A stretch of DNA of 64,000 nt from Parvularcula maris (GTDB taxonomy: Bacteria > Pseudomonadota > Alphaproteobacteria > Caulobacterales > Parvularculaceae). Position numbers and translations under genes: made by a program. The notes beneath the pieces were generated by a model. The model worked only from the letters and a program-made list of their open reading frames with translations. It made no database searches and was not told the origin of the DNA. The stretch covers positions 186,001 through 250,000 of the forward strand of contig NZ_JANIBC010000001.1 in NCBI RefSeq assembly GCF_024505085.1, given 5' to 3'. Shown here piece after piece: positions 15,910 through 34,524 of this stretch. Position 1 is the first letter of the stretch. Each line of letters opens with the position of its first letter.

Positions 15910-15999
15910 GGAGAGGTGCCGGAGTGGTCGAACGGGGCGGTCTCGAAAACCGTTGAGCGTGCAAGCGTTCCGAGGGTTCGAATCCCTCTCTCTCCGCCA
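15910..15999 (+). tRNA. tRNA-Ser (anticodon CGA)
   Basis: A 90-nt class II tRNA. The acceptor stem GGAGAGG pairs with TCTCTCC, with discriminator G and an encoded CCA at the 3' end. The anticodon stem CGGT/ACCG holds the loop CTCGAAA, giving anticodon CGA, which reads UCG. A long variable arm (TTGAGCGTGCAAGCGTTCC region) and the T arm GAGGG/CCCTC with loop TTCGAAT confirm serine identity. The accessory stretch 16.0-20.0 kb begins right at its 3' end, a common integration site. No second copy of the tRNA 3' end was found downstream. Confidence 0.95.
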
Positions 16000-18435: not shown

Positions 18436-19990
18436 GATGCCGTTGAAAAAGGAGCGTGCGAGCGGCCCCGAACAGTGATTCACTTCATCAGTTGACGGAG
18501 GGAACGTTCGGCATGATGGGTAAGCTCGATGGCGGCGAGGAGAAGCTGTTTTATGCCTTCTCGCTCGAAGATGCGGTTCCTCAGGATCATCTCCTTCGTC
18601 GGATCGACCGGTTCCTGGACCTGAGCGAGCTGCGCCCCTTCTACAGCTCGATTGGAAGGCCGTCGGTCGATCCCGAGTTGATGGTGAGGATGCTCCTCGT
18701 TGGGTATTGCTTCGGCATCCGGTCGGAGCGGCGTCTCTGCGAGGAGGTGCATCTCAACCTCGCTTACCGCTGGTTCTGTCGCCTCGGGCTTGAAGACCGG
18801 GTACCTGACCACTCGACCTTCTCGAAAGCGCGCCATGGCCGGTTTCGCGAAGCAGGTCTGTTCCGATCCCTCTTCGAAGCCACGGTACGCCGCTGCATGG
18901 CTGACGGTTTGGTCGGCGGGGAAGGCTTCGCGACCGACGCTTCCTTGATACATGCCGACGCGAGCAAGAACCGATCTGCTTGGAAAGGTGAGGCTGTCGA
19001 CTGGGAGGATCCACAGATCGCCAGCCGTCCGGTTGTCGAGTATCTCGATGCATTAGATGACGGGCCCAAGGTCACAGAGAAGAAACGTGTCTCACTGACC
19101 GATCCTGCAGCGCAGTGGACCTGTGCTCATGGCGGGCCAGCGCACTTCGCCTGGGCAACGAACTACCTCGTCGACGTCCAGGCGTCGGTCATCGTGGACG
19201 TCGAAGCGAGCCCTGCGGTGAGACCAGCCGAGGTCGCTGCCTCCCGCCGGATGGTGGACAGGACCGAGGAGCGGTTCGGTCTCAAACCGAAGCGTCTCAT
19301 GGGGGACAAGGCTTACGGCAGTGCCGAGATGCTGTCGTGGATGGTGAAGGAGAAAGGCATCGAGCCGCATGTTGCGCTGTTCGCGCAGCCAGATCGGAAG
19401 AAAGCCGATGGCGTTGGCCGTGGCGACTTCACCTATGATCCCGAAGAAGATGCGTACACGTGCCCAGCTGGCAAGAAGCTCAAACGGTTCCGCCGAGAAG
19501 CGCGAGCGAAGAAAGCGAAGCCGCCGCCGGATCAGGTCTACCGCTACTATGCCCTGAAGGCCGACTGCGACGCTTGCCCGCTCAAACCAAAATGCTGCCC
19601 GAACCTACCGATGCGCAAGCTGCCACGCTCGATCCACGAAGACGCCCGCGACAAAGTGAGAGAACTACAGCGTACGGAGGCTTACGAGGTCTCCCAGCGG
19701 GACCGAAAGAAGGTCGAGATGGCCTTCGCCCACCTCGAACAGAACCTCGGCTTCCGCAGGCTGCGGCTTCGCGGTCCGACCGGCGCTCAGGACGAGTTCC
19801 TTCTCGCAGCCGCAGTCCAAAACCTTCGGAAGCTAGCGTGCAGAGTAGCGTAGTGGCCGACCGACCTGGCTGAGGTCATGATCTGGTAACGGACCCAGCC
19901 GAGAAGAGGCCTCAACGGAGGCTACCAGCGCGACGGCGAAATCGCCGAGGGGCATCAATCGCGCCTGGCGCCGACTTCTTCAACGGCATC
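18436..19990 (+). mobile_element. IS1182-type insertion sequence, apparently intact
   Basis: An element of 1555 bp with a single transposase frame. The terminal inverted repeats are GATGCCGTTGAAAAAG at 18436-18451 and its inverse CTTCTTCAACGGCATC at 19975-19990 (one mismatch over 16). Both ends are flanked by ATCC (18432-18435 and 19991-19994), a likely 4-bp target duplication. The internal part of the terminus (GTTGAAGAAGTCGG) is shared with the broken element at 35818-37403. The 250 bp after its right end up to the next gene hold nothing recognisable. Confidence 0.85.
18513..19853 (+). CDS. IS1182 family transposase
   Basis: A 446-residue DDE transposase. Family blocks are complete: the N-terminal LRRIDRFLDL, GRPSVDPELMVRMLLVGYCFGIRSERRLCEEV, NLAYRWFCRLGLED, PDHSTFSKARHGRFRE, then GEGFATDASLIHADASKNRS (first Asp), LMGDKAYGSAEM (second Asp region) and a C-terminal MAFAHLEQNLGFRRLRLRGPTGAQDEF with the catalytic Glu. 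A Cys cluster (CDACPLKPKCC) precedes the last block. The start is ATG 18513 or 18516; upstream codons overlap the terminal repeat region. No frameshift or internal stop is seen, so the protein may be active. Confidence 0.9.
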   Translation: MMGKLDGGEEKLFYAFSLEDAVPQDHLLRRIDRFLDLSELRPFYSSIGRPSVDPELMVRMLLVGYCFGIRSERRLCEEVHLNLAYRWFCRLGLEDRVPDHSTFSKARHGRFREAGLFRSLFEATVRRCMADGLVGGEGFATDASLIHADASKNRSAWKGEAVDWEDPQIASRPVVEYLDALDDGPKVTEKKRVSLTDPAAQWTCAHGGPAHFAWATNYLVDVQASVIVDVEASPAVRPAEVAASRRMVDRTEERFGLKPKRLMGDKAYGSAEMLSWMVKEKGIEPHVALFAQPDRKKADGVGRGDFTYDPEEDAYTCPAGKKLKRFRREARAKKAKPPPDQVYRYYALKADCDACPLKPKCCPNLPMRKLPRSIHEDARDKVRELQRTEAYEVSQRDRKKVEMAFAHLEQNLGFRRLRLRGPTGAQDEFLLAAAVQNLRKLACRVA

Positions 19991-20238: not shown

Positions 20239-21633
20239 TCAGCCCGCCCAGGCGGTCCGTTTTCTGTAGATCGTCGAAGGGTTGATCTCCAACAGCCTAG
20301 CAGCTTCCTGAATATTTCCTTCCGTGACGGCGAGAGCGCGTTCGATGGCGCGGCGCTCGATCACATGGAGCGGTTCGACGACTGCGGTAGCCTCTTTCGC
20401 AGACGGTGCGGCGAAGGGAGCGGAGGGATCACCGACACCATCGAGCCGAAGCGCTGCCGACAAGTCTTCCGCCGTCACGAGAGAACCGCCCGTCGCAGTA
20501 AGGATCATCGTTCGCCTGACGGTGTTCAGCAGCTCACGCACGTTCCCCGGCCAGGTATGCGAGGCCAGCATCGCGCGAGCGCCCTCGTCGAAGCCCGTGT
20601 GCGCCCCGCCCGTCTCCTTGGAGAAGCGCCGAAGAAATTCCTCCGCCAAGAGAATGATGTCGGACCCTCGCTCTCGGAGGGGAGGCATTACGACCGGTAC
20701 GACGTTGAGGCGGAAATAAAGATCCTCGCGAAGTCTGCCCTCGGCGATCGCATGCTTTGGATCGCGGTTGGTAGCTGCTATGATGCGGATGTCGGCGCGA
20801 CGTTCCTTCGATTCGCCGACGCGCATATAGGTGCCAGACTGAAGAAGCCTCAGGATCTTCGCCTGAAGCCCGATCTCCATCTCCCCTAGCTCGTCAAGGA
20901 AGAGTGTGCCACCATGGGCGCGTTCCGCTGCACCCTCGCGGTCGGCGACCGCTCCGGTGAAGGCGCCTTTGACATGGCCGAAGACCTCGCTTTCGAGCAT
21001 GTTCGGCGAGATCGCGGCGCAGTTCAGGATGACCATCGGCCTGCCGCTGCGAGCCGAGTTCTGGTGGATCGCCTCGGCCGCGAGCTCTTTACCCGTACCG
21101 CTCTCGCCGGTGATGAGGACGCTGGCGTCGGTCGGAGCTGCAGCCTCGATGATCCGCTGGACGGCCTTCATCGGTAGCGAGCTTCCGAGCATTGCGGACG
21201 AAGAGGTGGCGGCTTCGGGGCGCGTCGCTGGATTGGCTGGCGCGGACCCCGACCTGTTCGGCTTCTCGCCGGTGCGCACCCACACCTGCTCGAGGGCGGC
21301 AATCATCTTCGGCCCGCTGAACGGTTTGACGAGAAAGTCGCTCGCGCCCTCCCGCATCGCCTCGACGGCGGTGCCCATGGAGCCGTTGGCGGTGATCGCG
21401 ATCACAGGAACGTCGCGACCTTCCTTTTGCAGCCAGCGGAGGAGCTTGAGGCCACTACCATCGGGCAGGTGGAGGTCGAGAAGAACTGCATGGGGCTCCG
21501 CGCGCTCGATCTCGTCGATACCCGCCGCGCAGGTTTCGACCACGACAGTCTCCATCCCGGCACGACGAAGGAAGCCGTCATAGGTTCGCGCCATGGAGGG
21601 GCTGTCTTCGATGATGAGGACGGTCGTCTTCAT
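20239..21633 (-). CDS. LuxO-like sigma-54-dependent response regulator
   Basis: A 464-residue NtrC-family activator. Receiver domain at 1-120 (IIEDSPSMAR acidic pair, phospho-acceptor in AVLLDLHLPDGSG, KPFS). AAA+ domain at about 148-385 with Walker A GESGTGKE, the sigma-54 contact loop GAFTGA and Walker B FLDELGEM, R-finger region RADIRIIAATNRD. A Fis-type helix-turn-helix ends the protein (EGNIQEAARLLEINPSTIYRKRTAW), and this together with the receiver (ITANGSMGTAVEAMREGASDFLVKPF) resembles Vibrio LuxO. Its ATG overlaps the kinase stop by 4 nt. Two sigma-54-type promoters in the adjacent polysaccharide genes are the evident targets. Confidence 0.9.
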   Translation of the reverse strand: MKTTVLIIEDSPSMARTYDGFLRRAGMETVVVETCAAGIDEIERAEPHAVLLDLHLPDGSGLKLLRWLQKEGRDVPVIAITANGSMGTAVEAMREGASDFLVKPFSGPKMIAALEQVWVRTGEKPNRSGSAPANPATRPEAATSSSAMLGSSLPMKAVQRIIEAAAPTDASVLITGESGTGKELAAEAIHQNSARSGRPMVILNCAAISPNMLESEVFGHVKGAFTGAVADREGAAERAHGGTLFLDELGEMEIGLQAKILRLLQSGTYMRVGESKERRADIRIIAATNRDPKHAIAEGRLREDLYFRLNVVPVVMPPLRERGSDIILLAEEFLRRFSKETGGAHTGFDEGARAMLASHTWPGNVRELLNTVRRTMILTATGGSLVTAEDLSAALRLDGVGDPSAPFAAPSAKEATAVVEPLHVIERRAIERALAVTEGNIQEAARLLEINPSTIYRKRTAWAG

Positions 21634-24371
21634 GATGCGGCCCTCCTCGAATGATCGGCAACGGCCTTCTCTGTCTCTTCGATGAGGGTGACGAGACCGG
21701 GAAGGCGCCTCATCACCTCGCTCGCGCGTCCCTCTTTGGAGAGGCCGTCGAGCTCCGCTGCCAGGGTCTGAAGAGGAAGCGCTCCGACATTGGCGGCTGA
21801 GCTCTTGAGCGAGTGGATCTGGCGGAAGATGTCGTCCTGCTTATCCATCGACGCCTCTCGCAACGTCGCCTTGTAGGCCGCGAGCTCGCCGAGGAACATT
21901 TCGAGGACTTCGGCGAAGAGGTCCAGGTCATCGTCCCATTCGTTGACGGAGGTGTCCGGAGTCAGAAGGTCTCGGGTCATCGAAGATGTCCTTGCTGTGC
22001 TTGCGCGGATGACGGCGTCGATCAGCTCGTCGATCGCGATGGGCTTGCTGACATAGCCACTCATGCCAGCCTCAAGGCATCGTTCCTTGTCGCCGCGGAG
22101 GGCGTGGGCAGTAAGGGCGATGATCGGAAGATGGAGAAACGATCCGCCCCGCGCGCGGATTTCCCTCGTGGCCTCGAGGCCGTCCATCTCCGGCATCGAG
22201 ACGTCCATCAGAACGATGTCGTAGTCGCGCTCGGTCGTCATACGGAGAGCCTCGACGCCGTCCCGAGCCCGATCGACCGTCGCGCCGTGACGCTCCAGTC
22301 GACGCGATACGACGAGCGCGTTCGTGTTGCTGTCCTCGGCGAGCAGGATCGAGAACCCGTTGAGCGGCACGATGCCGTTTTTCTCAGCCGGATCGCTGTT
22401 CGCCGAGGGATGCTCTAAAACGGCCGCTGAAGCGGGAACGACCACGGAGAAGCGTGATCCCACACCCGGCTGGCTCGCCGCCGAGATCGTCCCGCCCATA
22501 ACGGTGATCAGGTCGCGGCAGATCGTCAGGCCAAGGCCCGCGCCGCCGTAACGTCGGCTCAAGCCGGTATGGGCTTGAGTGAAGCGATCGAAGAGCTTCG
22601 GGAGGACGTCCTCGGAGATACCGATGCCCTGGTCAACGACGTCGAAGGCGAGAGACTGGGCCTTCAGATCGTAGTCGATCTCGACACGGACGCGGCCCGA
22701 GGGCGTGAACTTGACGGCGTTCGAGAGGAGGTTGGTCAGGATCTGGCGCAGGCGTGCACCATCTCCCTCCACGGCCTCGGGGGTCTCGGGTGCGATCTCG
22801 ACATCGACTGTGACCTGGCGGTCCGCGAACGTTGCCAGGATCACGGATATTGACTGATCGACGAAATCACGTGTTCGGATGGGTTTCTTGTCGATGTCGA
22901 TCTCGCCTGCCTCGATCCGGGACAGGTCGAGAAGGTCCGAGAGAAGCGTCAGAAGGGAGTCGGCAGATGCGGCCGCCTGTTCGAGATACTGGGTCTGGAC
23001 GTCCGTGAGCCTCGTTTCGCCCATAAGGTCGAGAAGGCCGATCACGCCGTTGAGGGGCGTACGCATCTCGTGGGACATAGAAGCCAAGAAGTGCGTCTTC
23101 GCGACATTGGCCGCCTCCGCCGCTTCCTTGGCTTCGGTTAGGGCGAGGTTCGCCTCGGCGACTTTCGTGATGTCCTGGACGGTGCCGACGATCCGGTAAG
23201 GACGACCGCTTGTGCTCTTCAGGCATTCGAACCGGGTTTCAACGGTTCGGACGGAACCGTCGCGCAGAACGATCCGGTGGGTGATGTCCGCGTCCTGCCC
23301 TTCGTTTACCGCATCGATAACGCATCTCTCGATGGTATCTGTGTCATCGGGATGCAGATATGGCCTCAGGCTATCGGTGGTCGGCACTCCTTCGGACGGG
23401 TCGATGCCGAAAATCGAGTACGTCGCAGGCGACCAGTAAAACATACCCGTCTTGATCTCCCACTCGAAGCTGCCGAGTTGGGCGAGACGCTGTGCGTGGG
23501 CGAGGAGCTTTTCGTAGCGATCACGCTCCGCCTCGTGTTGCTTGCGCTCGGAAATATCGCGCACCACACCATGCACGAGAGGTCCTCCGCTGGTCTCGAC
23601 CTGCCTAGCGGAGAGCTCCGCGGCGAACGGTTTGCCATCAGCGTTCAGAAACTCCGTTTCGATACTGACTTCACGGCCTTCTACGACGTCCGCGAGCGCT
23701 TCTTTTGCATGAGCTAGCGCCGTTTCGGGGTGCAGCGAGCGAACATGCAGACCGATCGCATGTTCGCGGGATAGGCCGAGGAGGCTGCTAGCCTTGCTGT
23801 TCAGATCGACGATCGTGCCATCGACTGTATGCACGATGATGGCGTCGGTCGAGAGTTCGAACAGGTTCTGATACTTGTTCTTCGAGGCGCGGACTTCTTT
23901 TTCAGCCTCCAGACGAAGGCTGATGTCCCGGAGATAGGCCGTGAAGTAGTGTTCGCCGCAGCACTCGACCGGCGTGATCGCCAGCTCGACGGGGATCTCG
24001 TTTCCGTCCGCACACAGCGCTTCAATTTCGATCCGTTTACCGATGACAGGGCCGTCACCGGTCTCCTTGAAGCGCTCCATCCCGGCGATGTGCATCTGGC
24101 GGAAACGCTCCGGCACCAGAACATGGGCAAGGTTCTTGCCGATGACATCGGCGCGCCGATAGCCGAAGGTTGAGCAAGCGGCGGGGTTGAACTCGATGAT
24201 GGAACCGTCGCCGTCGATGATGACGACGCAATCGAGTGCCTGGTCGATCACGGCGTTTCTGAGGGCGATCTGGAGCTCGCTTTCATCGTTTATCATGTCC
24301 TCGCCTCGCCTCATCGTGCTCTCCCGCAGGTCATCCATCGCCATGTCACGCTCCCTCGTATTGAGCTTCAT
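21630..24371 (-). CDS. PAS-rich hybrid histidine kinase with receiver and Hpt domains
   Basis: A 913-residue kinase without obvious membrane segments. Order: three PAS/PAC modules (about 38-160, 165-285, 290-405), HisKA with His434 in SHEMRTPLNG, HATPase (NLLSNAVKFT, DQGIGIS, GAGLGLTI), receiver from about 690 ([25 protein letters not shown]), and a C-terminal Hpt domain with HSLKSSAANVGA. Receiver and Hpt in one chain allow a full His-Asp-His-Asp relay ending on the sigma-54 regulator encoded directly downstream with a 4-nt overlap. It is analogous to LuxQ plus LuxU in one protein, but lacks a periplasmic sensor, so the signal is probably cytoplasmic. Confidence 0.92.
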   Translation of the reverse strand: MKLNTRERDMAMDDLRESTMRRGEDMINDESELQIALRNAVIDQALDCVVIIDGDGSIIEFNPAACSTFGYRRADVIGKNLAHVLVPERFRQMHIAGMERFKETGDGPVIGKRIEIEALCADGNEIPVELAITPVECCGEHYFTAYLRDISLRLEAEKEVRASKNKYQNLFELSTDAIIVHTVDGTIVDLNSKASSLLGLSREHAIGLHVRSLHPETALAHAKEALADVVEGREVSIETEFLNADGKPFAAELSARQVETSGGPLVHGVVRDISERKQHEAERDRYEKLLAHAQRLAQLGSFEWEIKTGMFYWSPATYSIFGIDPSEGVPTTDSLRPYLHPDDTDTIERCVIDAVNEGQDADITHRIVLRDGSVRTVETRFECLKSTSGRPYRIVGTVQDITKVAEANLALTEAKEAAEAANVAKTHFLASMSHEMRTPLNGVIGLLDLMGETRLTDVQTQYLEQAAASADSLLTLLSDLLDLSRIEAGEIDIDKKPIRTRDFVDQSISVILATFADRQVTVDVEIAPETPEAVEGDGARLRQILTNLLSNAVKFTPSGRVRVEIDYDLKAQSLAFDVVDQGIGISEDVLPKLFDRFTQAHTGLSRRYGGAGLGLTICRDLITVMGGTISAASQPGVGSRFSVVVPASAAVLEHPSANSDPAEKNGIVPLNGFSILLAEDSNTNALVVSRRLERHGATVDRARDGVEALRMTTERDYDIVLMDVSMPEMDGLEATREIRARGGSFLHLPIIALTAHALRGDKERCLEAGMSGYVSKPIAIDELIDAVIRASTARTSSMTRDLLTPDTSVNEWDDDLDLFAEVLEMFLGELAAYKATLREASMDKQDDIFRQIHSLKSSAANVGALPLQTLAAELDGLSKEGRASEVMRRLPGLVTLIEETEKAVADHSRRAAS

Positions 24372-24429
24372 GATTCAGATGCCGTGCCGGGCAGCAGACA
24401 CCGAAAAGTCTGGGTTTTCGTTTGCGCGG

Positions 24430-24467
24430 CTTGCAAATTGCGACGAAACGGGAAGGCAATTTGCAAG
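24430..24467. promoter_or_regulatory. Inverted CTTGCAAATTGC sites upstream of the kinase-regulator operon
   Basis: CTTGCAAATTGC (24430-24441) and its exact inverse GCAATTTGCAAG (24456-24467) are separated by 14 bp, 59-96 bp before the kinase start. Each arm resembles the LuxO site TTGCA-W3-TGCAA (TTGCAAATTGCGA has one mismatch). It is a candidate autoregulatory site for the LuxO-like protein. No T-run follows, so it is not a typical terminator for the upstream glycosyltransferase gene. Confidence 0.5.
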
Positions 24468-24485: not shown

Positions 24486-25880
24486 TCAAAACGCCCCCCT
24501 TGCCGTCAGCACCGCCCAAGGGGTGCGGAGCAAGATCGAGAGGTCGGTCAGAAGATCGCGTTCCCGCACATACTGAAGGTCGAGACGCACCTGCTCCTTG
24601 AACCCGAGCGATGCGCGCCCTCCGATCTGCCAGAAGCAGGTGAGCCCGGGCTTGACCGAAAGCCGCTTCCAGGCGTCACCTTCATACCTGATCACCTCGT
24701 CCGGCAGGGGCGGGCGCGGGCCCACCAGCGCCATGTTGCCAGCCAGGACGTTGAGGAGCTGCGGCAGCTCGTCGATCGAGAAGCGCCGGATGAACCGTCC
24801 GACCGGGGTGATGCGGGGGTCGTCCTCCACCTTGAATGTCACGCCGCCAGCGCCGTGGTGGTTGAGGGCTGCGACCTCGCCCCGCTTGGCCTCCGCGTCA
24901 GCGACCATCGAGCGGAGCTTCAGCATTAGGAACATGCGCCCGCCCTTGCCGACCCGCTCCTGTTTGAAGAAGATCGGCCCCGGACTGGTCAGCTTCACCG
25001 CCGCCATCGCAGGCAGTAGGACCGGCGCCGTCAGGACGAGCGCTGTACCCGCGCCGACCAGATCAAGGCAGCGCTGTAATTTGTTGTGCACGGAGCGTAA
25101 ATGGCTTCGGAGGCCGTCCGTCAGGGCATGGCCGAGATAGACCGGATTGCCCAAGATGTAGCGTCGCCACATGCGGGCGGGTTCTTGAATGAGGCGCCAG
25201 GTCCATTCGAGACCTGCGGACCTAAGAACGCGGGGCGCGCGCGAGACCCGCTCGGCCATGAAGTCGAAGAGGCCTCCCACTGCGAAGACGAGGGGAGCGT
25301 CGATGCTATTCGCGTAGCGGTCGATCCACAGTTCTTGCCTGGGAACACCCATGGCGACGAGGACGATATCGGCTCCCGAACGGTTGATGGTATTGACGAT
25401 GTTGCGAGAGGCGTAGTCCTTGAAATAGCCGCTGTGTGTACCGACGACCTCTATATGGGGCCAGGACCGGCTGATGGCGGCGGCGACATCCTCTGACACG
25501 CCTTCCGCCCCGCCGAGAAGGAAGACGCGCTGCCGCGTGCCCCGAAGGCTGGCGAAGAGCGCGGGCAGCAAGTCCGTTCCGTTGAGATTGGCTACGAACC
25601 GTCGGCCCTTCGCCTTGGCCGCAAGCGCCACGCCGGAGCCGTCGGGGAGGAGCATGTCGGCCCTTCTGAGCGCAGTGGCGTAGTAGGGGTTCTCCCTGAC
25701 GACGTTGAAGCAATGGGCGTTCATGAACATCACGCGCGTGCACTGACGGTCATTGAGGCGTTGCTGCAGCATCGACAGCGCCTTCGATCTTGACAGGTTC
25801 AGGACACCCAGCCCTTTGAGCTCGATGGGCGTTTCGTTTCTATCGATTTGGTCAACGGGTGTTCTCTGTATCTCGGTCAT
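24486..25880 (-). CDS. Fusion of WecG/TagA/CpsF glycosyltransferase and WcaJ-type sugar-phosphate transferase
   Basis: A 464-residue bifunctional protein. Residues about 25-245 are a GT26 WecG/TagA/CpsF domain (MNAHCFNVV, LLPDGSGVALA, NGTDLLPAL, LGGAEGV, VAMGVPRQELWI, VGGLFDFMAE). After one membrane segment (about 278-300), residues to the end are a polyprenyl-phosphate sugar-1-phosphate transferase catalytic domain (SPGPIFFKQERVGKGGRMFLMLKLRSM, DDPRITPVGRFIRRFSIDELPQLLNVL, LVGPRPPLPDEV, KPGLTCFWQIGGRA). One polypeptide could therefore place the first sugar on the lipid carrier and add the second. A -24/-12 promoter ends about 33 bp before the ATG; the ribosome site is GGGAGGAG. Confidence 0.9.
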   Translation of the reverse strand: MTEIQRTPVDQIDRNETPIELKGLGVLNLSRSKALSMLQQRLNDRQCTRVMFMNAHCFNVVRENPYYATALRRADMLLPDGSGVALAAKAKGRRFVANLNGTDLLPALFASLRGTRQRVFLLGGAEGVSEDVAAAISRSWPHIEVVGTHSGYFKDYASRNIVNTINRSGADIVLVAMGVPRQELWIDRYANSIDAPLVFAVGGLFDFMAERVSRAPRVLRSAGLEWTWRLIQEPARMWRRYILGNPVYLGHALTDGLRSHLRSVHNKLQRCLDLVGAGTALVLTAPVLLPAMAAVKLTSPGPIFFKQERVGKGGRMFLMLKLRSMVADAEAKRGEVAALNHHGAGGVTFKVEDDPRITPVGRFIRRFSIDELPQLLNVLAGNMALVGPRPPLPDEVIRYEGDAWKRLSVKPGLTCFWQIGGRASLGFKEQVRLDLQYVRERDLLTDLSILLRTPWAVLTARGAF

Positions 25881-25912
25881 TGCTTCTCCTCCCTTAGGGT
25901 CGAAGAGAGTAG

Positions 25913-25928
25913 TGCAGGCAGAGTGCCG
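25913..25928 (-). promoter_or_regulatory. Sigma-54 (-24/-12) promoter of the WecG-WcaJ fusion gene
   Basis: On the minus strand the sequence is CGGCACTCTGCCTGCA. Compared with TGGCAC-N5-TTGCA it has both invariant dinucleotides (GG and GC) at the required 10-bp spacing and 9 of 11 defined bases. The expected start of transcription lies about 20 nt before the ATG at 25880, leaving just room for the ribosome site. The LuxO-like activator gene is 4 kb downstream. Confidence 0.7.
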
Positions 25929-26122
25929 GTCGCCGGATATCTCAATAAGAAAGGAAAAACAGAAGGATAACGGATCAGCTAGATCGTCTGTCGGCAGAAT
26001 GCAATCGAATTGTGTTCAATTTGAATGGAATCTTACAAGGACTGAACGCATCGCTATTGCGACCCTATACTGACGAATCAGTTGGCGGAGCATATCCCTT
26101 GCGGCAACGACGGCAAGGTATG

Positions 26123-26133
26123 TGCAGTCTGCA
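26123..26133. promoter_or_regulatory. Candidate upstream activator site TGCA-N3-TGCA between the divergent promoters
   Basis: TGCAGTCTGCA sits between the two divergent sigma-54-type promoters (about 120 bp from one and 195 bp from the other), within the usual range for an enhancer. The core matches the LuxO pattern TTGCA-N3-TGCAA but the spacer is not A/T and the outer bases differ. The rest of the 25929-26253 intergenic region holds no recognisable gene. Confidence 0.35.
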
Positions 26134-26253
26134 TGGCAATTTCAGACGGAAGGGCTGGCAATCCGCGTGACGCAGCCATCGTTGGGGGGGTCTGTAGTCC
26201 TTCAAGCATCTGAAGTATAAAGAGAAAAAAGGTTTTTGTTTCCGGACAGCTCT

Positions 26254-26269
26254 CGGCACGAAGGCTGCG
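26254..26269 (+). promoter_or_regulatory. Sigma-54 (-24/-12) promoter of the wzx-glycosyltransferase operon
   Basis: CGGCACGAAGGCTGCG has GG and GC exactly 10 bp apart and the CACG extension of the -24 element. The expected transcription start is near 26280, 18 nt before the ATG at 26298, with AAGGA in between. It shares both deviations (C for T at the first base of each box) with the divergent promoter at 25913-25928. Confidence 0.7.
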
Positions 26270-26297
26270 ATTGATCCCCCAACGAAGGATCGGTCCC

Positions 26298-27566
26298 ATG
26301 CTGCTCACAAGGACACTAGGAAGACATCTGAGCGCGCTCGCCTCGCAGCGCATCGTCCGCAACCTGGCCTGGCTTGCGGGAGGCGACCTGCTCACCCGGG
26401 CCGTCCGTATCGGGTCCATCGCCATCGTGGCGCGGCTGATAGATCCCGATGCCTTCGGTCTCGCGGCACTTCTGCTGTCGAGCCATGAACTCGTCAAGGT
26501 CGGTGCCCAGATCGGCACCGGACAGTCGATCATCCGCGCGAAAGCCGATGACCTCGAGGCGGTGGCCGAGACCTGCTGGCGGCTCAACTGGATGATATGC
26601 ACCGCCCTAGCCCTCGTGCAGATCGCCGTCGCCGTTGCCATAGGCGCGGTTGCGAGCGACTGGTCCATCACCTTGCTCGGGACAGCGCTCGCTGCGGTTT
26701 TCATCGGGATGCCTGTCGGCCTCGTCCATGTCTATCTTGGTCTGCGGGCCGAGCGCGCCGATGCGGTGGCCAAGATAGCCGCCGCGCAGAACATGGCGGA
26801 CGCGGTCCTGACGGTGGCCTTGGCCCTCGCGGGGGCAGGGGTATGGGCGCTCGTGCTGCCCAAGGCGCTGACCCTGCCAATCTGGCTCGTCGGCGTGAGG
26901 CGGATCGTCTCCTGGCGGCCGGAAGCGTCGGTCACCCCGGCCCCTTGGCGTCCGATCTTGCACTTTGGTCTGCCGATCCTCGGCTCGGAAGCTCTCGTCG
27001 CGGCGAGGAACCACCTCGACAAGCCTCTCATCGGTCTGTTTCTCGGAATCGACGCGCTCGGCGTCTGGTATCTTGCGACCTCGGCAGGCACTGGTCTGGC
27101 ACAAGCTGTCTCGTCCGCCTTCTCCTTCGTCCTCATGCCCTTTCTGTGTAAGGACGAGGGTGGCGAGAACCGCACGGCACGCTTCGATCGTTTCGTCCGC
27201 ATCGCTCTTCCCGTTCTGACACTGGTGTTCATCGCCCAGGCTTTCGCCGCGCCGGTCTACGTTCCGCTGATCTTCGGCCATCGTTGGTCCGAGGCTGCGG
27301 CCATCGTTGCAGTTCTTTGCCTCTCAGGCGGACCGCGGCTCCTTTGGGACGGCGTGGTTCAGCTTGCCCGCAGCGAAGGACGGAGCGGTATCGAGTTCAG
27401 CAGTAACCTGCTCACCGGTTTCCTCTCCTTCGCAGGCCTGACGATTGGAGCGCAGCACGACCTCCTCAACGCTGCTCTTGCGATGGTGATGGTAACCGCC
27501 GCAGCCCAGATCGGTTTGTCGCTCTGCATACGGTTCATCACTCTCAGGAATCCGACCCCCTCATGA
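26298..27566 (+). CDS. Wzx-like polysaccharide flippase (lipopolysaccharide biosynthesis protein)
   Basis: A 422-residue membrane protein with about 12-14 hydrophobic segments. The start (NLAWLAGGDLLTRAVRIGSIAIVARLIDPDAFGLAALLLS) matches the oligosaccharide flippase/WzxC group of the MOP superfamily, as does the central LHFGLPILGSEALVAARNHLDKPLIGLFLGIDALGVWYLA. It should flip lipid-linked repeat units across the inner membrane. I use the ATG at 26298 with AAGGA upstream; the TTG at 26271 would fall ahead of the transcription start predicted from the sigma-54 promoter. First gene of a four-gene operon with three glycosyltransferases. Confidence 0.88.
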   Translation: MLLTRTLGRHLSALASQRIVRNLAWLAGGDLLTRAVRIGSIAIVARLIDPDAFGLAALLLSSHELVKVGAQIGTGQSIIRAKADDLEAVAETCWRLNWMICTALALVQIAVAVAIGAVASDWSITLLGTALAAVFIGMPVGLVHVYLGLRAERADAVAKIAAAQNMADAVLTVALALAGAGVWALVLPKALTLPIWLVGVRRIVSWRPEASVTPAPWRPILHFGLPILGSEALVAARNHLDKPLIGLFLGIDALGVWYLATSAGTGLAQAVSSAFSFVLMPFLCKDEGGENRTARFDRFVRIALPVLTLVFIAQAFAAPVYVPLIFGHRWSEAAAIVAVLCLSGGPRLLWDGVVQLARSEGRSGIEFSSNLLTGFLSFAGLTIGAQHDLLNAALAMVMVTAAAQIGLSLCIRFITLRNPTPS

Positions 27567-27581
27567 GAAAGGAACGCCGCC

Positions 27582-28523
27582 GTGCTTGAAGACCCTCTCT
27601 TCAGTGTCGTCATCCCCTCCTACCGCTCGGCATCCATGGTTGGGGAGGCGGTGAGATCAGCGCTCGCTCAGGATGCCCGATCGCTCGAAGTGATAGTCGT
27701 CGATGACGGCTCTCCAACCGAAGACGCTCAAGCGGCGGAAGCGGCAGGGGAGGGCGACCCTTGCCTTCGGATCATCGTTCAGCACAACATGGGGGTGTCG
27801 GCGGCGAGGAACACGGGGATCAGGACGGCGAGGGGGCGCTTCATCGCCTTCCTCGACGCGGACGACGTCCTCCTTCCGGGTGCTTTGTCCGCTCATCTTG
27901 CAGCGTTTGAAGAGCACCCGGAGCTAGCGCTGTCCTTCGGCCGCGTGCGTTTTTGGGATCCGGCCTTCGGCGAAAAGGGGCGCCAAAGCGCTCGCTGCTT
28001 CTCCCTCAGCCTACCGCGTATTCTCGGTGACAATCAGGTGTGTACCGCATCAAACATGGTCGTTCGGACCGAAGACGCCCGCCAGATCAACGGGTTCGAC
28101 GAGGCGCTGCGGCGGGCCGAGGACCAGGACTTTCTCGCGCGGCTCTATCTTGGCGGATATCGCACCCGCGGGCTCGACCGTCTGACGCTCAACTACCGCA
28201 CCGTCTCCGGCGGCCTGTCGTCCGACCTCGACCTTTTTGCCGCCGACTGGCGAAAAGCCGTCGAGAAGGCTCGCCTCCTGGCGCCGGGAGATGTTGCGCT
28301 CGCCGAACCTGAGATCGAGGCGCGCTTTGCGAGATACGCGGTACGGCGTCGGTTGCGCCTCGGGACATCGGGGGCAAGGGATCTCAGCCTTCTCGCTGGC
28401 CATCTCGTCAAGGCCCCCGGGCTTCTCCTCAAAGAGCCTCGCCGTTGCTTCTCGACGTTCATCGGCGCCGCTGCCGCGCCCCTTTTCCGTCACCCGCATC
28501 TGACGCGGGTTCTTTCACGCTAG
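27582..28523 (+). CDS. Glycosyltransferase family 2
   Basis: A 313-residue cytosolic GT-A enzyme. It has the family 2 opening FSVVIPSYRSASMVGEAVRSAL, EVIVVDDGSPTEDAQ, GVSAARNTGIRTARGRFIAFLDADDVLLPGAL (DxD motif DAD) and the acceptor-side RAEDQDFLARLYL (ED motif). It starts with GTG at 27582, 15 nt after the flippase stop. It should add a sugar to the lipid-linked unit; donor and acceptor cannot be read from sequence. The C-terminal 90 residues are helical and shared in style with the next gene (LLLKEPRR near the end), suggesting an old duplication. Confidence 0.9.
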   Translation: MLEDPLFSVVIPSYRSASMVGEAVRSALAQDARSLEVIVVDDGSPTEDAQAAEAAGEGDPCLRIIVQHNMGVSAARNTGIRTARGRFIAFLDADDVLLPGALSAHLAAFEEHPELALSFGRVRFWDPAFGEKGRQSARCFSLSLPRILGDNQVCTASNMVVRTEDARQINGFDEALRRAEDQDFLARLYLGGYRTRGLDRLTLNYRTVSGGLSSDLDLFAADWRKAVEKARLLAPGDVALAEPEIEARFARYAVRRRLRLGTSGARDLSLLAGHLVKAPGLLLKEPRRCFSTFIGAAAAPLFRHPHLTRVLSR

Positions 28524-28541
28524 AAAGTAGGAGACTTTGCC

Positions 28542-29540
28542 ATGACCACGAACTCCACAAGCCCGACGGTCTCAGTCATCATGCCGGTCTACGGGGCTGA
28601 GCTGACGGTTGCCGAAGCGGTCCTGTCCGTTCTCGATCAGTCCTACCTGGATTTCGAGCTCATCATCGTCGATGACGGCTCGAAGGATTCTAGCATCGAC
28701 ATCTGCGCGACCTTCGATGACGGACGTCTACGGATCGTAAGACAGGCCAACCGCGGTCTTGCGGGCGCGCGCAACACCGGAATCCGTCACGCGCGAGGCC
28801 GTTTCATCGCGCTCATCGACGCGGACGACAGCTGGCACCCGGACAAGCTGAGAAACCACGTCATCCACCTCGAAGCGTCGCCTTCGGTCGGTGTGAGCTA
28901 CGCCGGGTCCAACCTGATGGACGAGAGGGGGGAGTGCCTTGGCGTTCATCAGCGTCCACGCCTCACCTCGGTCAGGCGACGCGATATCTTCCTCCGTAAC
29001 CCCATCGGGAACGGTTCGGCACCGGTCATTCGGCGTGAGGTCTTCGACGCGATCGCCTATATCGACCCCATTCACGGGGAGCGCGCCTTTTTTGACGAGA
29101 GGTTTCGTCAGTCCGAGGACATCGAGTGCTGGATCCGCATCGCGCTCTCGACGCCCTGGCGGTTTGAAGGGCTTCCCGGCCGCCTGACCAACTATCGCCT
29201 CAATGCCGCGGGGCTCTCGGCGGACACGGCCAAGCAGCTAGAGAGCTGGGAGCGCATGGCGGACAAGGTCGCCTACGCCGACCCCACTTTCTTCCGCCGG
29301 TGGGGGCGCATGGCGCGTGGGTTCCAGCTCCGCTATCTCGCGCGCCGCGCCGTCCAGACCGGCGACGAGGCGGAAGCCCTTCGCCTTTGCAAGGAGGCCC
29401 TTAGTGAGGCTCCGCAGCTTTTTCTCCGTGAGCCGAGGAAGACGATCTCGACCGTGGCGGCAGCCGGCTTCCTCGCCCTGGCGCCTGGAGCCCTTCGCAA
29501 CCTCGTTCGTCGTCGCCTCTTCGGCAGGGCGGCGTCGTGA
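28542..29540 (+). CDS. Glycosyltransferase family 2 (paralogue of preceding gene)
   Basis: A 332-residue GT-A enzyme with VSVIMPVYGAELTVAEAVLSVLDQSY, ELIIVDDGSKDSS, GLAGARNTGIRHARGRFIALIDADDSW (DAD motif) and QSEDIECWIRIAL. Its C-terminus (LREPRKTISTV) parallels that of the upstream glycosyltransferase, so the two probably arose by duplication. It lies 18 nt downstream of the previous gene and overlaps the next start by 4 nt. Sugar specificity unknown. Confidence 0.9.
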   Translation: MTTNSTSPTVSVIMPVYGAELTVAEAVLSVLDQSYLDFELIIVDDGSKDSSIDICATFDDGRLRIVRQANRGLAGARNTGIRHARGRFIALIDADDSWHPDKLRNHVIHLEASPSVGVSYAGSNLMDERGECLGVHQRPRLTSVRRRDIFLRNPIGNGSAPVIRREVFDAIAYIDPIHGERAFFDERFRQSEDIECWIRIALSTPWRFEGLPGRLTNYRLNAAGLSADTAKQLESWERMADKVAYADPTFFRRWGRMARGFQLRYLARRAVQTGDEAEALRLCKEALSEAPQLFLREPRKTISTVAAAGFLALAPGALRNLVRRRLFGRAAS

Positions 29541-30511
29541 TTAAGGTCGCCCATCTCCTCGACGATAACCGAGTGGGCGGTGTCGTCCAGCATCTCAAGC
29601 TGTTCCGTCACGAACGGCTGCTAGAAGTCGCTGAATCGACTGTGGTGCCTGTCGATACATCGAAGCCTGGAGTGCGGATCGGCGCCGACATAATGGTCCT
29701 TCATCTGACAATGAGCTGGAGAAAGCTGCCCTTCCTCCTCGGCCTTCGTCTTTCGAACCCCCGTGCCTTTATCATCCTCGAAGAACATAGCTACACGGAA
29801 GGCTTCGAGCGTCACTGCGTACGGACGGCCAGGCGGTTCCGGCTGATGCTCCGCCTCGCCTACCGGCTGGTCGACCGCGTGGTGGCGGTCAGCGAAGCCC
29901 AGGGCGGGTGGATGGCGCGTCTGGGCCTAGTACCCCCGCGAAAGCTCAGCGTGATCCCTATGGCGCGGGAGACGGACAGCTTCGAGAGCCTGCCTTCGCC
30001 GTGGGCCCGTGGCCCGATCAGGCTCGGTCTTCTTGGCCGGTTCGCCCCGCAGAAGGGAATCGACCACGCCATCCGCGCCGTGCGGGGCCTCTCCGGGATA
30101 GAACTCGTCATCGGCGGCTACGGCCCGATGGAGGACGAGCTGAGGACCCTTGCCGAGGGCGCACCGAACATCACCTTTGCCGGGAAAGTCGAGGACCCCC
30201 GAAGCTTCATCGGGAGCATCGATGCCCTTCTCATGACCTCCCGCTACGAGGCGTTCGGCCTGACCGGTCTTGAAGCCCGGGCGGCGGGCCGGCCTCTCAT
30301 CGCCTACGAGGTGGATGGCCTTGCGGACCAGCTCGCGGCAGGCGGCGGCATCGCGGTGCCGGCTGGTGACGAGGCGGCAATGCGCGAGACGCTGGAGCGC
30401 CTGACAGCCGACGACATCGAGCGCCTGATCCCGGCCGCCCGCTGCGGTGCTCATGAGTGCTACGACAAACAGGTGGAAGCCTGGCGGGAGCTTCTCGGCA
30501 CCTGCCGGTAG
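29537..30511 (+). CDS. Glycosyltransferase family 4
   Basis: A 324-residue GT-B enzyme starting with GTG that overlaps the previous stop. The C-terminal nucleotide-sugar domain shows LGLLGRFAPQKGIDHAIRAV, ELVIGGYGPMEDELR, ITFAGKVEDPRSFIGSIDALLMTSRYEAFGLTGLEARAAGRPLIA, with the E-x7-E type motif (EAFGLTGLE). It completes the operon. It is convergent with the polymerase gene, whose stop is only 7 nt away. Confidence 0.9.
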   Translation: MIKVAHLLDDNRVGGVVQHLKLFRHERLLEVAESTVVPVDTSKPGVRIGADIMVLHLTMSWRKLPFLLGLRLSNPRAFIILEEHSYTEGFERHCVRTARRFRLMLRLAYRLVDRVVAVSEAQGGWMARLGLVPPRKLSVIPMARETDSFESLPSPWARGPIRLGLLGRFAPQKGIDHAIRAVRGLSGIELVIGGYGPMEDELRTLAEGAPNITFAGKVEDPRSFIGSIDALLMTSRYEAFGLTGLEARAAGRPLIAYEVDGLADQLAAGGGIAVPAGDEAAMRETLERLTADDIERLIPAARCGAHECYDKQVEAWRELLGTCR

Positions 30512-30517: not shown

Positions 30518-31813
30518 TCAATGGCTCTCGCCGCTAACCGACCGCTGAAGCAGCATCCCGTCCCTGAACGCGATCCCCATAAGTGTCAGGCCCGGCCAGT
30601 AGAGATAGGCCAGCATCTCCATGTTCTCGCCAAAGCTGAAGAAGATCATCAGGAGGAGGCAGGCGAGCGCGGCCCTAGCGGACTTGAGCGCAGATGAGAG
30701 GACCGAGAGTTCGAGGAGGCTCCAGACGACGGGGACGAGGAAGGCGAAGAAGCCCACGAGGCCCTTCACGAAAATTAGGCCGTACCAGGAGTGATGGCTA
30801 CCGATGGGCATGTACTCGACATAGTGCGGTCCTGGCTCGACCACCCCGTGTCCCCAGATCGGGTTCTCCTCGAGCCCCCGCTCCCGGGCGATCCGGTTGA
30901 GCGCGCCGCGCACCCGGCTCGAATCGGCGCGGGCCGAGGTAAAGCTGCCGATGGCTGCGTCGGCGATCCGTAGAAGGACCGGAGCGAGGATACCTGCGGC
31001 AAGGCTTGCGACGCTCGCCGCTAGGAACGTCGTCGGGCGGAGGATCCGGCTCACTGCCCAGGCTGCCGGGTAGATGAAAAGGAGGCTCAGCATCGCCATG
31101 CGCGACTGGCAGAGAACAACAATGGAGAGGGCCGCGGCGACGCCTACTGCTTTCCAGAACCGGTTCCGCTCCTCCATGGCACTGATGAACAGGAGGTTCG
31201 CGATGAGACCTGCCGCCGGAGCCCACGGCGCGAGAAACTGCCAGCGCGCAAGGCCGCTGTCAGGAGCCATCGAGTAGAGGTAGACGGTGAAGACCTCCGG
31301 TCCGGGTCCTCCGATCACCTTGAGGGGAGAGACGAACAGCGCCTCGGGAAGACCGGCGAGGGGCGCGAGGACAAACAGCGGAAGTAGGACGAGCGTCTGT
31401 AGAGAGAAGTAGCCGCAGGCGCGGAAGATCGTCTCGGCACGGATGTGGAGGCAGGCACCTACCAGAGGAAAAAGCGCGAGCAGAGCCCAGCCCTTGGCCC
31501 AGCCGATGGTCGACTTGATCGTCTTTGCAAGGCCGAGGTCGTTGCCAAAATGCCCGGCGAAGAGCGCGACGAGCATGACAATCATCGAGGCGATCCACAC
31601 CCAGACACCGAAGGGTACGGAATGGGGCCTCTTCGAGGGGGAGAGCGCGGGTGCGAAGTAGCTGCGGATGCAGAGAAGCGCGAGGAGAAGGTAGCCCACC
31701 ATCGGACCGAGGACGTAGAACGCACCGACAGCATATGCGGGCCAGCTAAGGGCCCAGCCCCAGAGCGTCAGACTGTCTTCAAGATGACCCGCAGAACGGG
31801 GAGCCTGATCCAT
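30518..31813 (-). CDS. Wzy/O-antigen ligase-like membrane protein
   Basis: A 431-residue protein with about 11 hydrophobic segments and a large polar loop (RVRGALNRIARERGLEENPIWGHGVVEPG...YMPIGSHHSWYGLIFVKGLVGF). The NPIWGHG and SHHSWYG elements are typical of the O-antigen ligase/Wzy (Wzy_C) family, where the loop carries the active site. It should polymerise or transfer the polysaccharide units in the periplasm. The start is set at the ATG 31813, inside the 3' end of the upstream Wzz-like gene (46-nt overlap); an ATG at 31837 is also possible. Confidence 0.8.
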   Translation of the reverse strand: MDQAPRSAGHLEDSLTLWGWALSWPAYAVGAFYVLGPMVGYLLLALLCIRSYFAPALSPSKRPHSVPFGVWVWIASMIVMLVALFAGHFGNDLGLAKTIKSTIGWAKGWALLALFPLVGACLHIRAETIFRACGYFSLQTLVLLPLFVLAPLAGLPEALFVSPLKVIGGPGPEVFTVYLYSMAPDSGLARWQFLAPWAPAAGLIANLLFISAMEERNRFWKAVGVAAALSIVVLCQSRMAMLSLLFIYPAAWAVSRILRPTTFLAASVASLAAGILAPVLLRIADAAIGSFTSARADSSRVRGALNRIARERGLEENPIWGHGVVEPGPHYVEYMPIGSHHSWYGLIFVKGLVGFFAFLVPVVWSLLELSVLSSALKSARAALACLLLMIFFSFGENMEMLAYLYWPGLTLMGIAFRDGMLLQRSVSGESH

Positions 31814-33219
31814 AGGAGTACCAGCATGAAGGTCCAAAGTATCGAGGCCGCTAACGCACCAGCGAGGGCAAGCTTCGGCATCGGGGCGGAGGGGCGGGTC
31901 GGCAGGGACGGGGCTTCGAGCACCTGAACCAGGGGGTAGGACTGGAAGACATCTGTCTTCGAGGTGTCGATACGGGCGAGGGCGGAGGAGAAGACCGCCT
32001 CCGCGATCAGGTGATCCCTTTCCAGATCATCGAGCCGCGCCGCGACGGGCTTCAGGTTTTCGACGCGCAGAACAGCGGTTTCGATCTGCCAGGTGAGCTC
32101 CGAGATCCGGGCCGCGATGGCACCCCTGCGGGCCGAAGTCTCGACAAGATCCCTCATCAGCGCGCCCCGCTCCGCTGCTGCCGCGTGCTGGAAGAGGGGT
32201 ACGAGGGCATCATCGCCAAGCCCGGTCAGAAGGCGGCCCCGTTCTATGAGGGCGGCGATCAGGGATGCGGCCGTGCGCTCGGCCTTTCGAAGCTCGGGGT
32301 GGTTGTCGCCAAAGCGAAGAGAGAGCGCGGCGATGTCGCTACGCTCGGTCGCGAGGCGGTTCATCAGTTCTTTGGCTTCTGGGTCGGTGAAGATAGTGAA
32401 GGCCTGCACCGCTAAGGCTTCATCAATGCCGAGAAGAGAAGCCAGAGTCGTAATCCGGCCAACCGCCTCGGCCAGCATAGCCTTCTGCCGCTCGACCTCT
32501 GCCCGAAGGCCCTCCAGCTCGCCAACGATATCCCTATACTGATCGATAGACACGATCCCTGAAGCGCTCTGCGTTGAGAGGATCGCCGTCCGGGTCCGCG
32601 TCAGGCCCTCGCGGAACTCGGCGATGTGCCGTTGGTAGACGTCCTCGCGTATCGCCATCTCGCCTCGGCGAAGCTCTTCGAGCTCCAAGAGGAAGGCATC
32701 GAGGAGGGCTGCCGCATAACGCTCGGCGTCGGCGGGATCGGCTCCGGACAGCTTGATCATCATAAGCTGGGTTTGATCGACGAGCTTGATGGAGGGGTCG
32801 GGGAACGCCTCGACCTTCATGTCGAGGTTCGCTGCCGCGCGGCCTAGCACGCGCCGGGAGGTAATGATCCGCTTGTAATTTTCGGTGGGGCTGAGCGATG
32901 CCTGGGAAAAAGGCGATGCCGTCATCGACGATGCCTGTCCGATCTCGCTCAGGTTGATCGAGCTTCCCGCACCGGCTCCTGGCATGATGAGCGTCATATC
33001 GCTCGTGTAGCTTTTCGGCGTGAAGAATGCGTAGGCGATGGCGAGCCCGAAAATCAAAAGCGAGCCGAGAAGTCCAAGGCCAACATAGCGCCAGCCGCGT
33101 CCCTCGGGGTCGAAGCCGGAGATCGCCTTGCGGACAAGACCTTTGCCAGCGTGTCGAGCTTGGAAGAGGTCGGCCTGGCGCGGGCGAAATATAGAGCTGA
33201 TCTTCTGCAAAACCATCAC
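31768..33219 (-). CDS. Wzz/GumC-like chain-length determinant protein without kinase domain
   Basis: A 483-residue inner-membrane protein. N-terminal membrane segment about 48-68 (VGLGLLGSLLIFGLAIAYAFF), a long periplasmic part with coiled-coil segments (about 165-235, 360-395), and a C-terminal membrane segment about 445-468. The Wzz-type proline-rich stretch appears as APSLPTRPSAPMPKLALAG just before it. There is no C-terminal tyrosine kinase domain and no separate kinase gene nearby. It controls chain length and links to the outer-membrane exporter, whose gene overlaps its start by 4 nt. Confidence 0.85.
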   Translation of the reverse strand: MMVLQKISSIFRPRQADLFQARHAGKGLVRKAISGFDPEGRGWRYVGLGLLGSLLIFGLAIAYAFFTPKSYTSDMTLIMPGAGAGSSINLSEIGQASSMTASPFSQASLSPTENYKRIITSRRVLGRAAANLDMKVEAFPDPSIKLVDQTQLMMIKLSGADPADAERYAAALLDAFLLELEELRRGEMAIREDVYQRHIAEFREGLTRTRTAILSTQSASGIVSIDQYRDIVGELEGLRAEVERQKAMLAEAVGRITTLASLLGIDEALAVQAFTIFTDPEAKELMNRLATERSDIAALSLRFGDNHPELRKAERTAASLIAALIERGRLLTGLGDDALVPLFQHAAAAERGALMRDLVETSARRGAIAARISELTWQIETAVLRVENLKPVAARLDDLERDHLIAEAVFSSALARIDTSKTDVFQSYPLVQVLEAPSLPTRPSAPMPKLALAGALAASILWTFMLVLLWIRLPVLRVILKTV

Positions 33220-34478
33220 TCTGCCGCCTCCAAAAGCCCGACAGTGAGAAGGCTTGGGCCGGCCAGCTCACCGATCATGGCCAGGACATCGCGGACGTTC
33301 GTGGCGACGGAGTTGTAGCAGGCGATGGCGTCCCCGGGGAGGAGGGTGGGATTGAACTCGGCCCGGTCGGGCCGCCTGACGAGGTCCTCGACGGCACGCT
33401 GAATCACGACGCTCTCGCCGGTGATGGGATCGGTAGTCGCGAGGATGGCGAAGCGGCCGGCATTCGTCACCTGGGTCCCGCCGACGCAGTTCGCCGAGAA
33501 GAGAGCCTGGAGGAGCGTCGTCCCGTAGGGCAGGCTTGTTGAGTGCTGACCGATCGCGGATGGGCCATTAGCTCTGGCAGGGGAGGACAGGTTCGAAAGA
33601 AAGACTCTTACCCCCGGCGGTGTGATCGGGCTTGGCTGCGCGAGGCCAGCATCGAAGCAGCCTCGGCTCGGCACCACGACCCTGTCGCCCGACATCAGGA
33701 AAGGATCGTGCCGTCCATTTCCGGCTAGGGCGTCAGAAAGGTCGACCTTGCGCTCCTGGCCCTCGCGCATGATCACGATGCCCGAAAGGTCTGCATCCGG
33801 ACGGATACCCCCCGCCGCCCTTAAGGCAGCTGACAGCCTCCGTTGGATTGCGTGGTCACCCGATGCCTCGACCTTGTCTGACTGAAGAGCCTCCGCAGGC
33901 AAATCGTTGACGGTGACCGGGCCAGGAATGAATACCGCACCGTCAACCACGACATCGACCGGCGCCCACGCTCCGACAGTTAGCGAGACTGAAGAATAGC
34001 CTTGCTTGTAAATCCGTTCTCCGACGAGAGCGTTCTCAACTGCATCTTCCGCTGAAGCGATACTGCGCCCGGCAACGCCGATCGGTGCCATATGGCGCAG
34101 GCTGATCGTGCCGTCGCTCGCGACAACGACGGGGCCTGAAAAAAGAGTGTCATCTTCGACATTCAGCTGGAGAAGATCACCTGGCGCTAGGCGGGGGTCG
34201 CCGAGCTGGTTGTGATTGCGACCAAACGGAAGAGCTGCGACTGCTTCAGGAAGTCCTTGTACTTTGCATCCATGTGTGTTCTCCACCCCTGCCCATCCGA
34301 AAGGCAGTCGCCGCGCGCGGTAATCGGAGCGCCATTCAGCCATATAGGCGGAGGAAACCTCGCTCTCCTCAAACCCGTTCTTGGGCACCACCGACGCGGC
34401 GCAGCTGCAAATCATTGAGAGTCCGAGGAGGCGGACGCCGAGCTGGATGGTGCTAGAGAGAATGATTTTGAAGGACAT
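33216..34478 (-). CDS. Wza-like polysaccharide export protein
   Basis: A 420-residue protein with a lipoprotein-like signal (LLGLSMICSCAAS, probable lipidated Cys about residue 25-27). The Poly_export domain follows (LAPGDLLQLNVEDDTLFSGPVVVASDGTISLRHMAPIGVAGRSIASAEDAVENAL), then SLBB-like segments (DVVVDGAVFIPGPVTV; PLLPGDAIACYN region). The protein should form the outer-membrane channel. It is the first gene of wza-wzz-wzy. No clear -24/-12 site was found in front of it; a palindrome at 34525-34551 may be its control site. Confidence 0.82.
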   Translation of the reverse strand: MSFKIILSSTIQLGVRLLGLSMICSCAASVVPKNGFEESEVSSAYMAEWRSDYRARRLPFGWAGVENTHGCKVQGLPEAVAALPFGRNHNQLGDPRLAPGDLLQLNVEDDTLFSGPVVVASDGTISLRHMAPIGVAGRSIASAEDAVENALVGERIYKQGYSSVSLTVGAWAPVDVVVDGAVFIPGPVTVNDLPAEALQSDKVEASGDHAIQRRLSAALRAAGGIRPDADLSGIVIMREGQERKVDLSDALAGNGRHDPFLMSGDRVVVPSRGCFDAGLAQPSPITPPGVRVFLSNLSSPARANGPSAIGQHSTSLPYGTTLLQALFSANCVGGTQVTNAGRFAILATTDPITGESVVIQRAVEDLVRRPDRAEFNPTLLPGDAIACYNSVATNVRDVLAMIGELAGPSLLTVGLLEAAE

Positions 34479-34524
34479 GCACCCTGGACTGCATGATCAA
34501 GGCCGGTTTCTGATTTTCGTAAGA

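Follow-up and report, generated by a model that had tools for sequence, protein, structure and literature searches.

A candidate sigma-54 regulon with LuxO-type activator boxes in a polysaccharide gene cluster of Parvularcula maris

In Vibrio fischeri, the regulator genes are situated inside the syp polysaccharide locus. In this SypF-SypG system, the Hpt domain of a kinase feeds a response-regulator-type sigma-54 activator of the polysaccharide locus, as described in PMC5019070 and PMC10162802. For the Vibrio regulator LuxO, PMC10162802 gives the box motif TTGCAWWWTGCAA, and PMC11407668 reports eleven residues of its helix at which replacement abolished binding. In PEP-CTERM polysaccharide systems, PrsK-PrsR two-component regulators are found beside a sugar transferase, together with RpoN-dependent genes (PMC9850573). 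Here we describe a polysaccharide gene cluster in a window of 64,000 nucleotides of Parvularcula maris (assembly GCF_024505085.1, contig NZ_JANIBC010000001.1, positions 186,001 to 250,000; coordinates below are those of the window), focusing on the divergent region of 417 bp between a WecG/sugar-transferase fusion gene (minus strand) and a wzx-type flippase gene (plus strand), which is adjoined by a kinase-activator operon. Comparative sequence analysis makes it probable that the cluster constitutes a self-contained sigma-54 regulon under this adjacent kinase-activator pair, with LuxO-type boxes and positive feedback. Its closest described case is SypF-SypG, and PrsK-PrsR is a second parallel. 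The features concerned are the following.

25913-25928, minus strand: -24/-12 element of the transferase gene, CGGCACTCTGCCTGCA, 32 bases before the ATG at 25880
26254-26269, plus strand: -24/-12 element of the wzx-glycosyltransferase genes, CGGCACGAAGGCTGCG, 28 bases before the ATG at 26298
24486-25880, minus strand: WecG/TagA domain fused to a polyprenyl-phosphate sugar transferase (Bac_transf), from domain matches
26298-27566, plus strand: Wzx-type flippase, from domain matches
21630-24341, minus strand: hybrid sensor kinase with several PAS and with HisKA, HATPase, receiver and Hpt domains; its open frame extends to 24371
20239-21633, minus strand: sigma-54 activator with receiver, AAA+ with GAFTGA and Fis-type helix-turn-helix, from domain and motif searches

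As in SypF-SypG, an Hpt-domain kinase here adjoins a sigma-54 activator in a polysaccharide locus; the locus belongs, however, to another bacterial class and carries other sugar genes. Moreover, its boxes follow the LuxO motif, whereas the SypG motif TTCTCANNNTGMDWN appears only with two mismatches, no match with fewer than two being found in three intergenic regions of the window. With PrsK-PrsR the locus shares two-component regulators beside a sugar transferase, but its kinase is a hybrid, and against the PEP-CTERM PrsR model (TIGR02915) the activator scores 346.4 bits, below the cut-off of 502.6. In the NCBIfam ranking of the activator, LuxO comes first with 459 bits and NtrC next with 363 bits, and LuxO 5ep0 is the best match among solved structures in the PDB; since 459 bits is far under the cut-off of 800 of the LuxO model NF041946, the activator resembles LuxO without being a member. 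The term 'LuxO-like' in the initial annotation is therefore apt as a resemblance and not as a family assignment. Likewise, nine of the eleven helix residues critical in LuxO are identical in the activator, against 6 and 7 in two paralogues, and the box motif is the same in relatives. Unlike Vibrio LuxO, the activator is linked to polysaccharide genes. A comparison of 23 kb of the window with Rfam gave a single tRNA and no Qrr; the rest of the genome was not searched for Qrr.

The receiver, the AAA+ domain and the Fis-type helix-turn-helix identify the activator as a response-regulator-type enhancer-binding protein, of which the GAFTGA motif, earlier reported to be intact, is indeed present in the protein sequence. 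The domains found in its partner agree with the multi-step kinase proposed before, and no membrane segment was seen in this hybrid kinase, judged by eye. The genome contains one rpoN match (218.7 bits) and seven PF00158 matches, among which three proteins are clearly of the enhancer-binding type, namely the cluster activator, NtrX and, unlinked to the cluster on contig C5, an NtrC-like protein that scores under the NtrC cut-off. GAFTGA was seen by eye in two of these three, the cluster activator and the C5 protein. NtrX (L004 1081-2478) is above its family cut-off and no GAFTGA is seen in it, which makes direct activation of sigma-54 by this protein unlikely.

The sigma-54 consensus reads TGGCACG-N4-TTGCA, and the weights used for scoring -24/-12 sites were taken from this consensus. 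The initial annotation had proposed two divergent elements, at minus 25928-25913 and plus 26254-26269, with GG and GC 10 bases apart, 28-33 bp from the start codon and with two common deviations from consensus. Both are present there with this spacing, at 32 (transferase) and 28 (wzx) bases from the ATG, and both have C for T at the first position and just before TGC; the 10-base distance between GG and GC is also found at the wza element listed below. The pattern YGGCAC-N5-YTGCR matches 34 times in the whole genome (3.19 Mb in 48 contigs) against 24 times when reversed. As the pattern alone is hardly enriched, it is the placement that counts, and genome-wide enrichment was dropped as evidence. 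Dinucleotide shuffling of the divergent region (417 bp, 20,000 times) never produced an outward pair of sites and produced a correctly placed outward site, on either side, in 2 cases.

Conservation was assessed in relatives chosen by homology to the activator (E <= 1e-97), which was found in 34 of 398 genomes at the level of the order and in 72 of 385 at the level of the class, the window's genome counted in both. From these, 67 stretches were fetched, comprising all 33 other order-level genomes (G009 as two stretches) and 33 class-level places among more. Boxes were sought around such activator genes only, with one additional pattern search in two genomes. Genes of relatives were called by a simple longest-open-reading-frame script, so that their starts are uncertain, and the activator itself went uncalled in nine of the 33 class-level loci (L244, L246, L248, L250, L251, L258, L259, L261, L265), where the division into coding and non-coding DNA is consequently least reliable. 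The sequences are related rather than independent, and near-duplicates (L223 and L225, for example) were retained. One activator homologue match, L207 (G740:C126:37-1167), contains an internal TAA.

The WecG-transferase fusion occurs in 19 of the 34 order-level loci, the window's included, and the next called gene across from it is wzx in 15 of these 19. As the activator served to choose the loci, finding it there has no evidential value. A separate search by the transferase gave matches at E <= 1e-60 in 4 of 81 genomes (G000, G009, G016 and G043, in the last confined to the second half of the protein), and in all four the contig also carries a homologue of the activator, at most ~4.3 kb away. 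The converse fails, as G017, G037 and G072 have an activator homologue without a transferase match. Within the genus the cluster is patchy: one of nine other same-genus genomes (G009, taken here to be that of Parvularcula mediterranea) carries a high-identity activator (79%) together with the transferase. Among the named genomes scanned, which may not include the window's own, P. mediterranea holds the closest match to the transferase protein (69% identity). In 17 kb around a transferase relative of Novosphingobium profundi (L074), neither an activator homologue nor an exact box core was found; the gene caller missed even the transferase there.

Upstream of the transferase gene (-150 to +60), GG-N9-TGC is found in 15 of the 19 fusion loci, compared with 4, 2, 7 and 4 for the wrong spacings N7, N8, N10 and N11; in the narrower interval of -120 to +40 it is found in 12 of 19, where 200 shuffles gave a mean of 3.2 and a maximum of 8. 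By inspection, a GC-type element stands at the equivalent position in 11 of the 19 upstream regions, the window's included, and eight of these 11, all of one family, share the block CGGAAYG-N3-CCTGC. In four loci (L213, L217, L218, L219) GA replaces GC at this site, and in another four (L214, L216, L223, L225) no convincing site is seen, the matches looking accidental. As a control, GG-N9-TGC was absent upstream of operon-internal genes, in 0 of 13 GT2 and 0 of 12 Wzy upstream regions. On the wzx side, a canonical element is common to the window's genome and P. mediterranea (AGGCACGGAACCTGCG). The conservation check suggested with the initial annotation thus turned out favourably for the transferase-side element across families and for the wzx-side element within the genus; elsewhere the latter is mostly GA-type or atypical. 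Judged by these comparisons, the predicted transferase promoter is well supported across families and the predicted wzx promoter only within the genus.

GA-type sites were counted upstream of wzx in 9 of 16 loci (shuffle mean 2.0, maximum 6). A GA-type -12 as a general sigma-54 variant was nevertheless rejected, some of these matches being a ribosome site plus ATGA and the excess near boxes being weak (11 versus 3-9). An extracytoplasmic function (ECF)-type reading of the CGGAAC block (GGAAC then GTT) fits one locus by eye and not its neighbours, and was likewise discarded.

A second line of evidence is formed by candidate activator boxes upstream of the elements. In the window, these and the further promoter elements are as follows.

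26122-26134: candidate activator box GTGCAGTCTGCAT, core TGCA-N3-TGCA exact, differing from TTGCANNNTGCAA at two positions, 132 nt upstream of the -24 element of wzx
25992-26004: candidate activator box, on the minus strand TTGCATTCTGCCG, two mismatches, degenerate, 76 nt before the transferase -24 element
24431-24443: candidate activator box, on the minus strand TCGCAATTTGCAA, one mismatch, 54 nt upstream of the -24-like element of the kinase gene
24454-24466: second box of this tandem pair, on the minus strand TTGCAAATTGCCT, two mismatches, 23 bp from the first and 77 nt before the element
24374-24389, minus strand: -24-like element of the kinase-activator operon, CGGCACGGCATCTGAA, with GA in place of the expected GC; the likely ATG at 24341 follows after 32 bases
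34490-34505, minus strand: -24/-12 element before the wza-wzz-wzy genes, CGGCCTTGATCATGCA, 11 bases before the called ATG (34478)

The window itself thus offers four boxes with one or two mismatches to the Vibrio motif, and the strong association comes from the relatives. In the window's stretch and the 67 fetched stretches together (101,416 non-coding and 1,031,265 coding bases), exact TGCA-N3-TGCA matches number 49 in non-coding and 21 in coding DNA, whereas each other gap from 0 to 7 gives 1 to 6 non-coding matches. Non-coding exact cores, one or more per locus, were found in 26 of the 34 order-level loci. When a strict promoter was defined as a box with at most one mismatch that is followed 35-150 bases downstream by GG-N9-TGC close to a gene start, 29 such promoters were counted in 21 of the 34 order-level loci; the same box with N7, N8, N10 or N11 gave 5, 5, 7 and 3 promoters, and seven decoy boxes with the right spacing gave 0 or 1 each. 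LuxO-type boxes therefore appear to accompany homologues of this activator, an association that is new here. Among 30 fetched loci of the 34 -24/-12 matches in the window's genome, a box (at most two mismatches, at most 260 nt upstream) occurs only at the two divergent promoters and at one further site, at -256. The single perfect box of this genome (C20:39014) lies beside what by eye is an integrase-like reading frame.

The agreement with P. mediterranea extends to the arrangement of the boxes. One of its boxes also stands 132 nt before the wzx element; its kinase gene is preceded by tandem boxes with the same 23-bp step, 78 and 55 nt before CGGCACGGCCCGTGAA; and at the same wza position it has CGGCCCTTGTCCTGCA with a box 76 nt upstream. 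Its entire genome has three perfect boxes, two of which make up the tandem pair preceding the kinase gene. Kinase genes in a different family of the order (L213, L214, L216-L219) are preceded by GC-type elements with boxes 64-119 nt further upstream. The tandem boxes before the kinase-activator operon, here and in P. mediterranea, predict positive autoregulation. These findings make the 'closed signalling-to-polysaccharide unit' of the initial annotation too narrow: the kinase-activator operon itself is preceded by boxes and a -24-like element, and the wza-wzz-wzy operon by a -24/-12 element. The distance of 11 bases between the wza -12 element and the ATG, which by eye is the same in P. mediterranea, would allow the wza transcript to begin at or near the ATG and hence to be leaderless.

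In the mechanism that we propose, the PAS-domain hybrid kinase would pass phosphate from histidine to aspartate and on to the histidine of its own Hpt domain, from where it would reach the receiver of the LuxO/SypG-like activator. In its active form this protein would occupy LuxO-type boxes (TTGCA-N3-TGCAA) that precede -24/-12 promoters; with DNA looping, its GAFTGA loop would then open the sigma-54 polymerase. Three kinds of promoters would serve as targets, namely the divergent transferase/wzx pair, that of the wza operon and that of its own kinase-activator operon, the last providing positive feedback. The DNA and protein sequences directly show the elements and where they are placed, the domains of the proteins and the box-activator association in relatives. 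From these we infer the phosphorelay order, DNA binding, RpoN dependence and feedback, as well as an exopolysaccharide or capsule as the product.

A number of observations weigh against this interpretation. In the window, the boxes beside the two divergent promoters carry two mismatches each and only boxes with three mismatches lie near the wza promoter, so that none of the 29 strict promoters is located in the window. The element of the kinase operon has an unusual GA in place of GC, and GC-type sites upstream of kinase genes are found in 11 of 34 loci, compared with a shuffle mean of 5.5 and a maximum of 12. Replacing TGC by TGA near boxes yields 11 promoters against 7, 3, 9 and 6 at the wrong spacings, which is hardly an enrichment. 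Class-level homologues are mostly without boxes, with at least one non-coding core in 6 of 33 loci; the box code thus appears strong in the order and mostly absent from the wider class sample, where gene calling is also poorest. Finally, outside the genus the aligned wzx-side block mostly ends in TTGAA, several loci lacking the GG, and the number of GC-type wzx sites (5 of 16, shuffle mean 2.8) is within what chance would give.

The wzx-side results bear on the possibility that sigma-54 serves just one promoter of the pair, that of the transferase gene, and that wzx is transcribed from another, perhaps sigma-70-type, promoter. The TTGAA endings and the near-chance count speak for it, but the wzx elements of the window's genome and of P. 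mediterranea are both canonical, well placed and preceded by a box at 132 nt, and we regard this alternative as unlikely. The earlier claim of two sigma-54 promoters driven by the adjacent activator is partly supported: it is the best reading in view of the conservation of the transferase side and the LuxO-type boxes in relatives, while on the wzx side canonical elements are limited to these two genomes. Both promoters could also be sigma-54 dependent and be driven by the unlinked NtrC-like protein of contig C5, the adjacent pair then controlling something else. That protein is the genome's only other enhancer-binding-type protein in which GAFTGA was seen, but it has 6 of the 11 LuxO-critical residues where the adjacent activator has 9, scores 381 bits against the LuxO model where the latter scores 459, and leaves aside that box cores lie around homologues of the adjacent activator in most order-level loci and that all four transferase matches are close to such a homologue; we consider it quite improbable. 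That the elements are chance matches and other promoters drive the cluster would fit the similar genome-wide counts of the pattern and its reversal. Their placement together with the shuffles, their conservation and the association with boxes speak against it and make it very improbable. Regulation of the cluster by its adjacent kinase-activator pair remains the reading that we favour.

The analysis turns a guess from a single window into a regulon that can be tested, with boxes and promoters named across a whole bacterial order; it also suggests which regulator probably governs a recurring polysaccharide cluster and supplies an outgroup for tracing how LuxO and SypG arrived at a common DNA code. 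Among the titles that the literature searches listed, no alphaproteobacterial LuxO-box polysaccharide regulon was seen, most subscription literature being outside the search. It is conceivable, though doubtful at present, that DNA recognition of the LuxO type long predates quorum sensing in Vibrio. LuxO/SypG-like activators across an alphaproteobacterial order would then read the same box to control polysaccharide clusters, other envelope clusters and their own operon, and control of surface polymers may be the ancestral job from which the use in quorum sensing is derived.

In another group of the order, boxes are located 75-96 nt before TGG-type -24/-12 elements (L157 4165-4306, L230 3701-3842, L237 2905-3046), and the gene that follows matches an outer-membrane efflux protein in L157 (Pfam, L157 only); this may be a second target type of the activator family. 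The distances between boxes and promoters hint at helical phasing, with z 11.3 for 48 pairs and 3.7 for the 28 distinct values at a period of 11.25; as relatedness was not removed from these values, no phasing is claimed.

The other genes of the cluster are the following.

27582-30511, plus strand: three glycosyltransferases (two GT2-type, one Glyco_trans_1-type), from domain matches
30518-34478, minus strand: Wzy-like, Wzz-like and Wza-like (Poly_export) genes, the Wzy_C match being under the Pfam cut-off

An IS1182-family transposase gene is located at 18456-19853, just past the activator operon, and the sequence at 35883-37320 resembles, by eye, a broken, frame-shifted transposase of the same kind. 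With transposase-like sequences on both sides, the cluster may be flanked by insertion sequences. A tRNA gene (Rfam) at 15910-15996, past the transposase and ~4 kb left of the activator operon, is a possible integration point.

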